The notes under the pieces are model-generated. The model was not told the DNA's origin, made no database searches, and saw nothing but the letters and a program-made list of their open reading frames with translations. DNA of 64,000 nt from Sneathiella chungangensis (GTDB lineage Bacteria; Pseudomonadota; Alphaproteobacteria; Sneathiellales; Sneathiellaceae): contig NZ_WTVA01000004.1 of assembly GCF_009882935.1 (NCBI RefSeq), positions 62,001 to 126,000 on the forward strand, written 5' to 3'. The translations under genes were made by a program, and so were the position numbers. Position 1 is the first letter of the stretch, and every line of letters begins with the position of its first letter. This document shows positions 52,036-63,440 of the stretch, piece by piece.

Positions 52036-52329
52036 ATGGCGAATGAAGGATACCACGAGCCAATTGCGGAACTGTCAGACGAGACACGGGATATGCACAG
52101 GGCAATCACCTCGCTGATGGAGGAACTTGAGGCTGTTGACTGGTATAATCAGCGGGTTGACGCCTGCAAGGATGCGGAGCTTAAAAAGATTCTCGCTCAT
52201 AACCGGGATGAAGAGAAAGAACATGCCGCGATGGTACTGGAATGGATTCGCCGAAAAGATCCGACATTTGATCACGAGCTTAAGGATTATCTCTTCAAAG
52301 AAGGTCCGATCGGTCATCACCACGATTAA
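52036..52329 (+). CDS. EncFtn-type (encapsulated) ferritin, orphan
   Basis: 97 residues matching the encapsulated-ferritin family of Rhodospirillum. The two-helix core has RAITSLMEELEAVDWYNQRV and LAHNRDEEKEHAAMVLEWIR. The expected ferroxidase residues E29, E30, E32, W36, E59, E60 and H63 are all present; in the family two subunits form the iron site. Unlike encapsulin cargo, it stops shortly after YLFKEGPIG with HHHD and lacks the C-terminal localisation extension. No encapsulin gene is adjacent or elsewhere in the window. GAGGAGG ribosome binding site. Confidence 0.93.
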   Translation: MANEGYHEPIAELSDETRDMHRAITSLMEELEAVDWYNQRVDACKDAELKKILAHNRDEEKEHAAMVLEWIRRKDPTFDHELKDYLFKEGPIGHHHD

Positions 52330-52343
52330 CGAATCTTGTAGAC

Positions 52344-52463
52344 AAAAAAATGCCGGCCAAATGAATGGCCGGCAAGTCTAACAGGGAGGTGCATCTTGAA
52401 GAAAGATGCGATGGAGCGAAAAGGATAGGGAGGAAACCTTCCGCTCCTGCCAGAAACTGGCAT
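52344..52463 (-). ncRNA. Small RNA copy A of a four-member family (anti-Shine-Dalgarno type)
   Basis: Read on the minus strand, 5' to 3': hairpin TGCCAG/CTGGCA (52448-52462); a stem GGAGCG/CGCTCC with inner AAGG/CCTT (52413-52447) whose loop contains TTTCCTCCCTAT. Then come hairpin GCATCTT/AAGATGC (52391-52409), the single-stranded box ACCTCCCTGTTAGACT (52375-52390), and a terminator GCCGGCC/GGCCGGC (52352-52373) followed by seven T (52344-52350). No reading frame of note. Exposed CCUCCC motifs can pair with ribosome binding sites, as in mmgR and CcsR sRNAs. Promoter not identified. Confidence 0.8.
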
Positions 52464-52585
52464 TCGAATGATATATATTTCAACACCATTCTTCCTTTAT
52501 ATTGTGTTTCCCGAAATATTTTAAATACGTGAATCTACATATCAGCCATGTGTCAGCGGCATATGCGAAAACCGGACGGCAGGGC

Positions 52586-52712
52586 AAAAAAAGACCGGCC
52601 TCAATTAAGAGGCCGGCTTAGTCTAACAGGGAGGTATTGCCTTTCGACAATACAGATTACATGTGATTGGGAGGAATACATGCAATCGATATCAGCAGGG
52701 AGCTGATATAAT
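52586..52712 (-). ncRNA. Small RNA copy B of a four-member family (anti-Shine-Dalgarno type)
   Basis: Minus strand order: hairpin ATATCAGC/GCTGATAT (52689-52709) with loop TCCCT; stem GATTGCATGT/ACATGTAATC (52655-52687, one mismatch) with loop ATTCCTCCCAATC. Hairpin TATTG/CAATA (52635-52652), box ACCTCCCTGTTAGACT (52620-52635) and terminator CCGGCCTC/GAGGCCGG (52595-52616) then seven T (52586-52592) complete it. Sequence outside the box and terminator differs strongly from copy A but the order of structures is the same. This compensatory variation supports a functional RNA. Confidence 0.82.
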
Positions 52713-52718
52713 AAATGC

Positions 52719-52731
52719 TGCGACGCAACAT
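52719..52731 (-). promoter_or_regulatory. Motif shared upstream of sRNA copies B and C (copy B site)
   Basis: ATGTTGCGTCGCA on the minus strand lies 10 bases upstream of the first hairpin of copy B. The same 13-mer with one change occurs upstream of copy C. It includes the palindrome TGCG-W-CGCA and may be a regulator or sigma-factor site or the 5' end of the transcript. Confidence 0.45.
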
Positions 52732-52870
52732 TCATGAGTAATAAATAGCTAAATCAGGGGCTATATTCCACAGTTAATATTGCACTGCACCTATGCAGAA
52801 AATGCATAGCTCAAATTGAGCTTCTCCGGTGACTGCTTTTGAAGTCCTGGATTTTTTGGCAGAATCAGCC

Positions 52871-52995
52871 AAAAAAATGCCGGCCAAATGAATGGCCGGC
52901 AAGTCTAACAGGGAGGTAATATGTCAAGAAGACATAGGATTGCAAAAATCAGGGAGGAGATTTCGCAATCTCATCAAGATCAGGGATCTTCATGA
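52871..52995 (-). ncRNA. Small RNA copy C of a four-member family (anti-Shine-Dalgarno type)
   Basis: Minus strand order: hairpin AAGATC/GATCTT (52976-52990, loop CCT); long stem GATTGCGAAATC with GATTTTTGCAATC (52938-52970) whose loop is TCCTCCCT. Hairpin TATGTC/GACATA (52920-52936), box ACCTCCCTGTTAGACT (52902-52917) and terminator GCCGGCC/GGCCGGC (52879-52900) then seven T (52871-52877) follow. The terminator and box are identical to copy A, so A and C probably share a recent duplication; the upstream stems differ. It is the unit nearest the LysR gene. Confidence 0.82.
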
Positions 52996-53005
52996 AAACG
53001 ATTAT

Positions 53006-53018
53006 TGCGTCGCAACAT
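53006..53018 (-). promoter_or_regulatory. Motif shared upstream of sRNA copies B and C (copy C site)
   Basis: ATGTTGCGACGCA on the minus strand, 16 bases upstream of the first hairpin of copy C; 12 of 13 bases match the copy B site at 52719. Further upstream (about 53035) lies CCTATTTTTATAG, a plausible but unproven -10 region. Copy A has no such site. Confidence 0.45.
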
Positions 53019-53112
53019 CGTTCGGGGACTTTCTATAAAAATAGGTGCGCGGAGAAAAGAGCAATCTCGACAATGCTAATATGCGCGCCCTGCATAGCTA
53101 TGTCTGAGCGGC

Positions 53113-54003
53113 CTAGAAGGAATATTCGGCGACCTTCTGAATAAGGAAGTCACGGAAAATGGTAACCCGCTTCGATTTGCGCAGTTCTTCGGGATAAACA
53201 TAATAGGAATCGAACGTCGGGCCGCCAACGTCCGGCAAAATGCGGACCACATTGGTATGACCGTGCACGATATAGTCGGGCAGGCTGGCAATCCCGAGAC
53301 CGCTTTGAACAGCGAGCAACAGGCCATAGACGTTATTTACCTTGAAGACCGGTTCCTTCGTCCGCCCGATCGCGGTAAGTCTCTTCATTAACCAGTTCAC
53401 GTTTGACAGGTTGGTGGGGGCTTCCTCGCCATAGGTGATGAGGTTGCTCTCCAGAACATCTTCAAGACAGGCTGGCGTCCCGTGCTTCTTGAGGTAGTCG
53501 GGCGACGCGTAAACGTGATGGTTGACTGTCATCAGCTTGCGCTGGATGAGGTCGGGCTGGACCGGAGCGCGCAGCCGAATGGCGATGTCGGCTTCCCGCA
53601 TGCCAAGATCGAGCTCCCGGTCGGCAAGTATCAGATTGACAGTAATTTCCGGATACAGCTCGATAAATTCCCGGATGCGCGGCGTCAGCCAGTTGGCGCC
53701 GAGGCCGACCGTCGCCGTCACCCTGAGTTCGCCGGACGGTTTTTCATGCGCATCCATCAGCTGCGCCTCGGTCATGGCGAGCTTGGCGAAAACCTCATGC
53801 GCCGTCTGGAATAGCAGCTCGCCTTGTTCGGTGAGCAGCAGTCCACGGGCGTGGCGGTGAAACAGGGCAACCTGCAGGCTTTCCTCAAGAGCGCTGATCT
53901 GCCGGCTGATGGCGGATTGACTGAGATGCAGCGTCTCGCCAGCGCGCGTGAAACTGCCCGCTTCGGCGACCGCATGAAATATGCGCAACTTGTCCCAATC
54001 CAT
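53113..54003 (-). CDS. LysR-family transcriptional regulator
   Basis: 296 residues starting MDWDKLRIFHAVAEAGSFTR, a LysR winged-helix domain (AISRQISALEESLQVALFHR), followed by a substrate-binding domain with GLGIASLPDYIVH. It lies 52 bases downstream of trxB on the same strand, a conserved trxB-lysR order in alphaproteobacteria. The sRNA units follow it on the same strand. Whether it controls them is inference only. Confidence 0.92.
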   Translation of the reverse strand: MDWDKLRIFHAVAEAGSFTRAGETLHLSQSAISRQISALEESLQVALFHRHARGLLLTEQGELLFQTAHEVFAKLAMTEAQLMDAHEKPSGELRVTATVGLGANWLTPRIREFIELYPEITVNLILADRELDLGMREADIAIRLRAPVQPDLIQRKLMTVNHHVYASPDYLKKHGTPACLEDVLESNLITYGEEAPTNLSNVNWLMKRLTAIGRTKEPVFKVNNVYGLLLAVQSGLGIASLPDYIVHGHTNVVRILPDVGGPTFDSYYVYPEELRKSKRVTIFRDFLIQKVAEYSF

Positions 54004-58876: not shown

Positions 58877-59002
58877 TTATTTTGCCTCAACCTGTCAGAC
58901 TTGCTTCTGAAGGGCCAAATTAAAACGCTGAAATTCAATAAGAGTCAAGAGGCTATGTTGTATTTTCATGAAATGCGGAGTAGTTGCGGCGACAGATCAA
59001 AC

Positions 59003-59100
59003 AAAAAAAGAGCCGCCTTCAAGAGGCGGCCCAAGTCAACAGGGAGGCGTCATAAAGACTGGAATAGGGATTCCAATCTCAGGCAGCCCATCAAGGGCTA
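59003..59100 (-). ncRNA. Small RNA copy D, diverged member of the family
   Basis: Minus strand order: hairpin AGCCC/GGGCT (59085-59099); hairpin TGGAAT/ATTCCA (59060-59075) with loop CCCT. The box GCCTCCCTGTTGACT (59034-59048) has a two-base deletion relative to copies A-C. The terminator is GCCGCCT/AGGCGGC (59012-59030) followed by seven T (59003-59009). It lacks the long CCTCCC-loop stem of copies A-C. It follows the DUF1192 gene on the same strand by about 130 bases, so it could be its 3' end or an independent RNA. Confidence 0.72.
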
Positions 59101-61538: not shown

Positions 61539-63440
61539 ATGACCAGCTATGAAAAGGATTATCAGCGTTCACTTGAGGACCCGGAGGCATTCTGGGCGAA
61601 AGCGGCCGAGGGTATCAGCTGGAACAAGACATGGGATCGCGTGCTGAATGCGGATAATCCGCCCTTCTACCGCTGGTACGAAGGCGCGGAGATGAATACC
61701 TGCTTTAACTGTCTGGACCGGCATGTCGAGGATGGCCGCGGCGACCAGAACGCCCTTATCTATGACAGCCCGATGACGGGACAAGTGAAAAGCTACAGCT
61801 ATCGGGAACTGACCGATATTGTGGCACGCTTCGCCGGTGCCCTTGCCGGTCAGGGTATCAAGAGGGGAGATCGGGTTCTCATTTATATGCCGATGGTGCC
61901 GGAAGCCGCCGTTGCCATGCTGGCCTGTGCGCGGATCGGCGCTATTCATTCAGTGGTTTTCGGTGGCTTCGCCCCGAAGGAACTTGCGACGCGTATCGAC
62001 GATGCCAAACCGGTTGCGATCATTGCGGCGTCCTGCGGATTGGAGCCGGGACGGACGATCGCCTATAAGCCGCTGATCGACGGTGCGATTGATATGTCCG
62101 CGCATAAACCGAAAAGCGTTATCATTCTGCAGCGCCCCGAATGTGAGGCGGAGATGACCCCGGGCCGCGATCATGACTGGCGCGAACTGGAGGCGGCGGC
62201 CGCCCCCGTTCCCTGCACGCCGGTTTTGGCGACCGACCCGCTATATATTCTGTATACCTCCGGCACGACAGGCGTTCCGAAGGGGGTGGTCCGCGATAAC
62301 GGCGGTCATGCTGTGGCGCTCCGCTGGTCGATGAAGCATGTCTATAATATCAACCCCGGCGAGGTTTTCTGGGCCGCTTCCGATGTCGGCTGGGTTGTCG
62401 GTCATTCCTACATTGTCTATGCGCCTCTCCTGCATGGTTGCACGACGATCATGTTCGAAGGCAAGCCCGTGGGCACGCCGGACGCGGGCACTTTCTGGCG
62501 CGTGATCCAGGACCATAAGGTAAAAGCGCTATTCACGGCGCCGACGGCCTTTCGTGCCATCCGCCAGCAGGATCCTGAGGGGGAGTTCATCGCCAAATAT
62601 GATTTCAGCGATTTTGACACGCTGTTTCTCGCCGGCGAAAGGGCCGACCCGGATACCATTATCTGGGCACAGGATCAGCTGAAAGTCCCGGTTATCGATC
62701 ATTGGTGGCAAACGGAAACCGGCTGGGCGATTGGCGCGAATTGCATGGGATACGGCATGAAGCCCGTAAAGCTCGGCAGTCCGACGCTGCCGGTTCCGGG
62801 CTATGACATCCGCATCATCAATGAAGAGGATGGCAAGACCGAGATGAAGCGCGGCGAAATCGGAGTGATCGCCGTGAAACTGCCGCTTCCGCCGGGCTCG
62901 CTTCCGACACTCTGGCAGAACGATGAGGGCTTCTTCAAATCCTATATGGCGGATATTCCCGGTTACTATAAGACCGGGGATGCCGGATATATCGATGAGG
63001 ATGGCTATCTCTTCATCATGGCGCGGACTGACGATATCATCAATGTCGCTGGGCATCGCCTTTCTACGGGCGGAATGGAAGAAGTCCTGGCGAGCCATCG
63101 CGACGTTGCGGAATGCGCAGTGATCGGGATTCAGGACAAGCTGAAGGGCCAGATTCCGATGGGGTTTGTCGTGCTGAACGCCGGCGTCAATCGGCCCGCC
63201 GGAGAGATCGAGAAAGAACTCGTCGCGCTGGTGCGCGAGAAAATCGGTCCTGTCGCCGCCTTCAAGATCGCTTTGATCGTGAAGCGGCTCCCGAAAACGC
63301 GGTCCGGCAAGATATTGCGCGGGGTCATGCGGAAAATTGCAGATGGGGAAGCCTATAACGCACCGGCGACGATCGATGATCCGGCAATTCTAACGGAAAT
63401 CACTGAAGTTCTTGCGGCGGCGGGATATCCTGCGAAATAG
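61539..63440 (+). CDS. prpE: Propionyl-CoA synthetase (acetate--CoA ligase family)
   Basis: 633-residue AMP-forming ligase activating propionate (or acetate). It starts YEKDYQRSLEDPEAFWAKAA and carries YTSGTTGVPKGVVRDNGGHA and WWQTETGWAIGANCMGYG. DDIINVAGHRLSTGGMEEVL and the acylated Lys region KTRSGKILRGVMRKI follow. The ATG is preceded by the strong GGGAGG ribosome binding site. Slightly shorter than acetyl-CoA synthetase, fitting PrpE. An SDR gene follows after 16 bases. Confidence 0.93.
   Translation: MTSYEKDYQRSLEDPEAFWAKAAEGISWNKTWDRVLNADNPPFYRWYEGAEMNTCFNCLDRHVEDGRGDQNALIYDSPMTGQVKSYSYRELTDIVARFAGALAGQGIKRGDRVLIYMPMVPEAAVAMLACARIGAIHSVVFGGFAPKELATRIDDAKPVAIIAASCGLEPGRTIAYKPLIDGAIDMSAHKPKSVIILQRPECEAEMTPGRDHDWRELEAAAAPVPCTPVLATDPLYILYTSGTTGVPKGVVRDNGGHAVALRWSMKHVYNINPGEVFWAASDVGWVVGHSYIVYAPLLHGCTTIMFEGKPVGTPDAGTFWRVIQDHKVKALFTAPTAFRAIRQQDPEGEFIAKYDFSDFDTLFLAGERADPDTIIWAQDQLKVPVIDHWWQTETGWAIGANCMGYGMKPVKLGSPTLPVPGYDIRIINEEDGKTEMKRGEIGVIAVKLPLPPGSLPTLWQNDEGFFKSYMADIPGYYKTGDAGYIDEDGYLFIMARTDDIINVAGHRLSTGGMEEVLASHRDVAECAVIGIQDKLKGQIPMGFVVLNAGVNRPAGEIEKELVALVREKIGPVAAFKIALIVKRLPKTRSGKILRGVMRKIADGEAYNAPATIDDPAILTEITEVLAAAGYPAK

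Follow-up and report, generated by a model that had tools for sequence, protein, structure and literature searches.

Small RNAs (sRNAs) of the alphaR8 family consist of a weak hairpin, the seed UUUCCUCCCU and a terminator, and multiple, sometimes adjacent copies have been reported (PMC12559287). alphaR14 (NfeR1) has three hairpins with anti-Shine-Dalgarno (aSD) loops, in which the stems vary freely and the seeds are redundant (PMC10746234), and silencing of target mRNAs by the aSD seeds of SisA and NfeR1 has been established experimentally (PMC12559287, PMC10746234). In S. meliloti, mmgR is repressed by PhaR, whose core consensus is NYGCRNYGCRN and which binds, in EMSA, a promoter containing the site TGTGCACCGCAGCA (PMC12542648); phasin protein is lowered by MmgR (PMC8401924).

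The DNA analysed here is the stretch of contig NZ_WTVA01000004.1 (assembly GCF_009882935.1) from position 62,001 to 126,000, which is referred to below as the window and numbered in its own coordinates, 1–64,000. It comes from Sneathiella chungangensis; Sneathiella is a marine bacterium. The minus strand contains an array of three tandem units (53020–52344), which are likely to be sibling genes for trans-acting sRNAs of the alphaR8/SorX type, two of them (copies A and B) derepressed together with phasin, whose products would silence mRNAs at Shine-Dalgarno (SD) sites. The architecture, terminators, covariation, conservation and dyads on which this reading draws are observed directly in the DNA.

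Architecture of the array

The array lies between a LysR-type regulator gene (53113–54003, minus strand), which is upstream on the same strand and syntenic, and an EncFtn-like gene (52036–52329, plus strand), which is convergent to the array and present in part of the genus only. Each unit is predicted to fold, in this order, into a 5′ hairpin, HP1, HP2 with an aSD loop, HP3, the unpaired box ACCUCCCUGUUAGACU and a terminator. A first-pass annotation had placed three tandem structured units on this strand, and all the elements that it described were found. The window has the 16-nt box ACCTCCCTGTTAGACT on its minus strand at exactly three places (52902–52917, 52620–52635 and 52375–52390), whereas 0.11 matches to it would be expected even with three mismatches allowed. 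Strong minus-strand terminators, each with a GC-rich stem and a 7-T tail, end at 52871, 52586 and 52344, and six terminator-like sites were observed versus 1.2 in shuffles.

Copy A (52871–53021, minus strand, about 150 nt), recognized by its fold, Rfam score, terminator and conservation in Sneathiella, comprises a 5′ hairpin/dyad (53021–52998), HP1 (52995–52971; loop CCC), HP2 (52970–52938; loop CTCCTCCCTG), HP3 (52936–52920), the box (52917–52902), the terminator (52901–52878) and a T7 tract (52877–52871). Copy B (52586–52736, minus strand, about 150 nt), recognized by fold, Rfam score and terminator, has a 5′ hairpin/dyad followed by HP1 (52709–52689; loop CTCCC), HP2 (52687–52655; loop TCCTCCC), HP3 (52653–52634), the box (52635–52620), the terminator (52617–52594) and T7 (52592–52586). 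Copy C (52344–52493, minus strand, about 150 nt), recognized by fold, terminator and a SorX score above the gathering threshold, opens with an AT-rich 5′ dyad (52491–52466) that lacks the PhaR motif discussed below and continues with HP1 (52462–52448), HP2 (52447–52413; loop with TTTCCTCCCT, the alphaR8 10-mer), HP3 (52409–52391), the box (52390–52375), the terminator (52374–52351) and T7 (52350–52344).

The aSD loops of the CCTCCC type that had been noted upstream of the box are borne out by the predicted folds: hairpins with TCCC or CTCCC in the loop lie 5′ of the box twice in copy A, twice in copy B and once in copy C (HP2), where the HP1 loop carries no TCCC. The RNAs had been put at about 120 nt. 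The 3′ ends proposed for them do bear terminators, but the conserved unit starts further 5′, at a hairpin/dyad about 100–125 nt upstream of the box, so that primary transcripts should be about 150 nt long.

Because T-tracts follow stems on the minus strand only, the polarity of the terminators also bears on which strand would be transcribed. The reverse complement of the units presents GGGAGG in loops, and a functional plus-strand RNA could act as a sponge of the CsrA/RsmA type, GGGAGG in hairpin loops being a formal likeness to CsrB/RsmZ. The Rfam SorX match and the homologous terminators likewise lie on the minus strand; we regard a plus-strand sponge as very improbable, and this candidate was rejected on terminator polarity.

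A single alphaR8-like sRNA gene, copy D (58995–59066, minus strand), with the box GCCTCCCTGTTGACTT, a GC terminator and T7, is located 6 kb from the array; one of its neighbors is a DUF1192 ORF and the other a 92-aa ORF to which Pfam gave no match. It is presumably the fourth copy to which the first-pass annotation had referred as copy D.

Conservation and covariation

Relatives were gathered by scanning genome contigs for the exact box and then for a relaxed box. With the exact box, many Sneathiella arrays gave two or three matches, Rhodobacteraceae gave single ones, and in other taxa there were matches that apparently arose by chance; the relaxed box recovered variant third copies. Since the box served as the query, its invariance in the gathered set is by construction, a circularity that the variant copies and the covariance model (CM) search lessen. 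As an observation apart, 43 viral contigs (L001–L043) contain the 14-nt core CTCCCTGTTAGACT.

Copies A and C share a near-identical 51-nt 3′ block (98%), which means that their resemblance is in part plain duplication; the structural claim requires relatives, and the argument rests on an alignment of 52 units from 19 genomes. In HP2 and the terminator, 15 of the 18 pairs have double changes across this alignment, 88.4% of cells are paired versus 68.9% in shuffled alignments, and the covariation score is 0.561, compared with 0.220 after shuffling and no more than 0.149 when partners were slid. An HP3 stem could be located in 47 of 54 units, and most of its positions show four Watson-Crick pair types; the stem is at least 6 pairs long in 91% of these 47 units versus 2.5% of shuffles. 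All 52 units of the 19 genomes have TCCC in the HP2 loop, and most of the box is likewise invariant, so the loop seeds are conserved while the stems drift. The proposal that the stems vary by compensation rather than as a DNA repeat holds across the aligned units. The duplicated block of A and C is what would favor a non-transcribed array of DNA repeats, a reading that we find scarcely credible given the compensatory changes across 52 units, the fixed order of distinct copies 1, 2 and 3 and the fixed synteny over the genus.

Each of the 26 genomes of the order had a match to the CM R1. Sneathiella as a whole conserves the array, usually with three copies in complete genomes; several of these genomes have a further weak CM match about 6 kb from the array, which corresponds to copy D, and the sister genus (G001) has two copies beside the same LysR gene. 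Across the class, 125 of 385 genomes were matched at E ≤0.001, mostly at single alphaR8-like genes; some of the matches have extra aSD loops, and the forms with and without them are intermediates. The conserved gene order is TrxB-LysR-array-molybdopterin oxidoreductase, and the LysR and oxidoreductase genes flank the array in nearly all genomes. The EncFtn-like gene, which had been taken as the context of the array, is found between array and oxidoreductase in one Sneathiella clade only; its presence in only part of the genus makes it incidental and suggests that it was gained or lost within Sneathiella.

Relation to known sRNA families

In searches against Rfam, copy C scored 50.4 bits with SorX (RF02784; gathering threshold 46.6 bits), and copies A and B fell below the threshold with 41.0 and 30.4 bits (E 3e-8 and 4e-5); the match spans the last 73 nt only. 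The gathering threshold of mmgR (RF00519, 41 bits) was not reached by copy D, the genome's best match to this model with 33.1 bits, nor by the others (32.1, 30.9 and 26.1 bits), and SorY (RF02651) gave 26.5 bits versus a threshold of 111. The box, ACCUCCCUGUUxGACUU, is part of both the SorX and the SorY models. Of the covariance-model and Rfam searches that the first-pass annotation had called for, the former matched relatives across the order, and the RF00519 scores of the array in the latter were weak (26–32 bits against 41).

The units share with SorX the HP3 hairpin, the ACCUCCCUGUU-GAC box, the GC terminator and the T-tail. They differ from it in being three tandem units and in having extra aSD hairpins and PhaR-type dyads. 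SorX exists as one RNA, 75 nt long in its mature form, that RNase E releases from the 3′ UTR of an ompR-like (OmpR-family) gene; the neighbor of the array is a LysR gene. SorY has the ACCUCCCUGUU-GACUU box and terminator as well, but is a single gene with its own promoter. MmgR (RF00519, 'suhB') and SisA-D resemble the units in their weak hairpin, single-stranded UUUCCUCCCU-like seed and terminator, and differ in that the seed of the array box is ACCUCCCU and the 5′ part is longer, with extra aSD loops. Compared with the alphaR8 10-mer, the box of copy A is one base off (UUACCUCCCU) and those of B and C are more distant; the layout itself is present, and the exact 10-mer occurs in the HP2 loop of copy C. 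A further difference is that no N-formylglutamate amidohydrolase gene was seen beside the array.

The several aSD hairpins with stems free to vary recall alphaR14 (NfeR1), cuckoo and CcsR RNAs, and the homologous siblings of the array recall the four of CcsR1–4. However, the motif of the array is UCCUCCC or CUCCC, whereas that of alphaR14/cuckoo is fixed as CCUCCUCCC, and the array has an alphaR8-like box and terminator. The alphaR14/cuckoo layout of three hairpins, each with an unpaired CCUCCUCCC, was not found in Sneathiella loops, this motif being seen only in the sister genus (G001); nor is there beside the array, where the neighbors are LysR and EncFtn, a ccaF1 (DUF1127) gene, with which CcsR is co-transcribed.

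These comparisons could be read as pointing to a separate family, nearer to the multi-loop alphaR14/cuckoo RNAs and merely SorX-like in its 3′ module. Several aSD loops on free stems are the hallmark of alphaR14 (PMC10746234), an HP2 loop in the sister genus has CCCUCCUCCCUG, the RF00519 threshold was not reached, and the related arrays L089, L096, L097 and L163 gave no Rfam match at gathering (4/4). But copy C does reach the SorX threshold, the GUUAGACU-box and terminator fall outside the alphaR14 description considered here, and intermediate forms, some with extra aSD loops and some lacking them, are spread over the class. We therefore judge a separate family to be quite improbable, and the CM searches favor a placement of the 3′ module within alphaR8/SorX diversity. 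The 3′ module belongs to the alphaproteobacterial alphaR8 group, which includes MmgR, SisA-D, SorX and SorY, and the array RNAs are an alphaR8/SorX 3′ module joined to alphaR14-like multi-seed loops, not a new class. The likeness to both mmgR/alpha-r8 and CcsR/cuckoo RNAs noted at first thus stands, one in the 3′ module and the other in the multiple aSD loops; a family outside those described, which had been thought possible, does not, given the SorX score of copy C and the presence of the box in the SorX/SorY models. The array is an enlarged, tandem, multi-copy and apparently PhaR-coupled variant of the alphaR8/SorX kind. That the four related arrays tested lack a match at gathering implies that many members of the superfamily are missed by the Rfam SorX and mmgR models.

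The CCCUCCUCCCUG motif of cuckoo/alphaR14 is in the HP2 loop of the sister-genus copy at L163:1700–1870, which is a possible bridge between the families.

Candidate targets

The pattern CAGGGAGG-N4-10-ATG had 22 exact matches, and its reversed control had 5; 13 of the 22 start real ORFs of at least 90 aa. Four of these 13 genes are of solute-binding type (DctP, SBP_bac_5, Peripla_BP_6 and NMT1_3) and two encode AMP-binding enzymes; with a control SD motif, solute-binding genes made up 1 of about 14, so the enrichment is not significant. Such candidates would be in line with the targets of SorY (the takP transporter mRNA), SorX (a spermidine transporter) and NfeR1 (ABC transporters; PMC10746234). 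GGGAGG was not found in the phasin and phaC leaders, and thus no direct pairing to phasin was found.

At the start region of the Peripla_BP_6 gene (G000:C12:12840–12864; gene at C12:12862), 14 of 15 nt are complementary to the box, which extends beyond the SD. As a conserved target this gene (L221, L237) was rejected: only 3 of 25 genomes yielded a match to it, and the single full ortholog checked retains no pairing beyond the SD. It would be at most a local target.

PhaR-type dyads and a proposed circuit

What is new here, and absent from the first-pass description, is a set of putative PhaR-type operator dyads at copies A and B. The dyad of copy A, TTGCGACGCAA (53005–53015), is just downstream of a -10-like TATAGA (53037–53032). 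Copy B has two on the minus strand, B2 (TTGCGTCGCAG, 52718–52728), which is conserved in nearly all arrays, and B1 (GTGCAGTGCAA, 52780–52790), 62 bp upstream of B2, with a -10-like CTATTT (52748–52743) between them. In nearly all A and B copies the dyad YTGCRNYGCAR lies 94–109 nt upstream of the box, and in almost every array the second dyad of copy B lies 61–62 bp further upstream; copy C is without a PhaR-type dyad, except in L097 and, in degenerate form, L094. The dyads agree with the consensus for PhaR in S. meliloti and Bradyrhizobium, a PhaR gene is encoded in this genome, and the extended dyad is about fourfold above the reversed control (60 versus 16 per strand).

The phasin promoter of this genome contains a double dyad 61 bp apart around TTGACA/TATACA, and 16 of the 17 Sneathiella phasin loci found (L240–L256) have a double dyad 58–61 bp apart, the dyads being about 50–130 nt upstream of the phasin match. 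The 61–62 bp geometry of copy B is close to this spacing, and phaC also has a dyad upstream. Outside the order, a dyad no more than 150 nt upstream was found in 13 of 23 alphaR8-like genes (L169, L171, L172, L174–L176, L179, L181, L182, L185–L187 and L189) versus 1.6% expected, where the 23 are the best CM hits and several are closely related. This frequency suggests that PhaR control of alphaR8-type sRNAs is probably old.

No sigma-70 consensus promoter was found at the inferred start of any copy, and independent transcription therefore rests on the conserved -10-like blocks seen by eye. An origin in a 3′ UTR, in which copy A, and perhaps all three, would be cut by RNase E from the LysR transcript into mature RNAs of about 75 nt (HP3, box and terminator), would agree with the position of the LysR gene, which in nearly all genomes precedes the array in the same orientation, with the lack of a terminator-like site from its stop codon to copy A, with the production of SorX in this manner from an ompR-like gene (PMC6238624) and with an Rfam match limited to the last 73 nt. 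We consider it unlikely, however: transcription would have to read through the strong terminator of copy A to reach B and C; a conserved block of its own with a -10-like element precedes every copy; the operator dyads of A and B sit at the inferred start; and conservation extends 5′ of the SorX-like part, to HP2 and HP1.

In the preferred reading of three sibling sRNA genes, each copy would be transcribed as a separate unit of about 150 nt from its own promoter to a Rho-independent terminator, and each RNA would offer several aSD seeds, namely the UCCC-bearing hairpin loops and the single-stranded box. Judging from the motif, PhaR would repress A and B via the phasin-like placed dyads; as PHB accumulates and PhaR is drawn to the granules, A and B would be made together with phasin, and they are thus probably switched on during carbon storage. 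The RNAs, probably with Hfq, would pair to purine-rich SD sites (GGGAGG) and so keep mRNAs from being translated, the most plausible targets being uptake-system and metabolic genes. Copy C, dyad-less in most species, may respond to another signal, in which case the array would sum inputs on one shared target set.

A broader and still tentative possibility is that PhaR control of alphaR8-type aSD sRNAs is class-wide in Alphaproteobacteria, that Sneathiella has amplified it to an array coupling the amount of stored PHB to the dose of multi-seed RNAs that repress nutrient-uptake genes, and that phasin and copy B follow one double-operator design. Three things described separately, alphaR8 seeds, multi-loop aSD architecture and PhaR/PHB control, would here be joined, and the MmgR-PhaR link of S. 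meliloti becomes a testable class-wide circuit with a conserved, phasin-like double-operator geometry. Sneathiella is culturable, and the three siblings can be deleted individually.

In the third copies of one clade (here 52466–52491), an AT-rich 5′ dyad, GATATTGAAATATATATC, replaces the PhaR motif.
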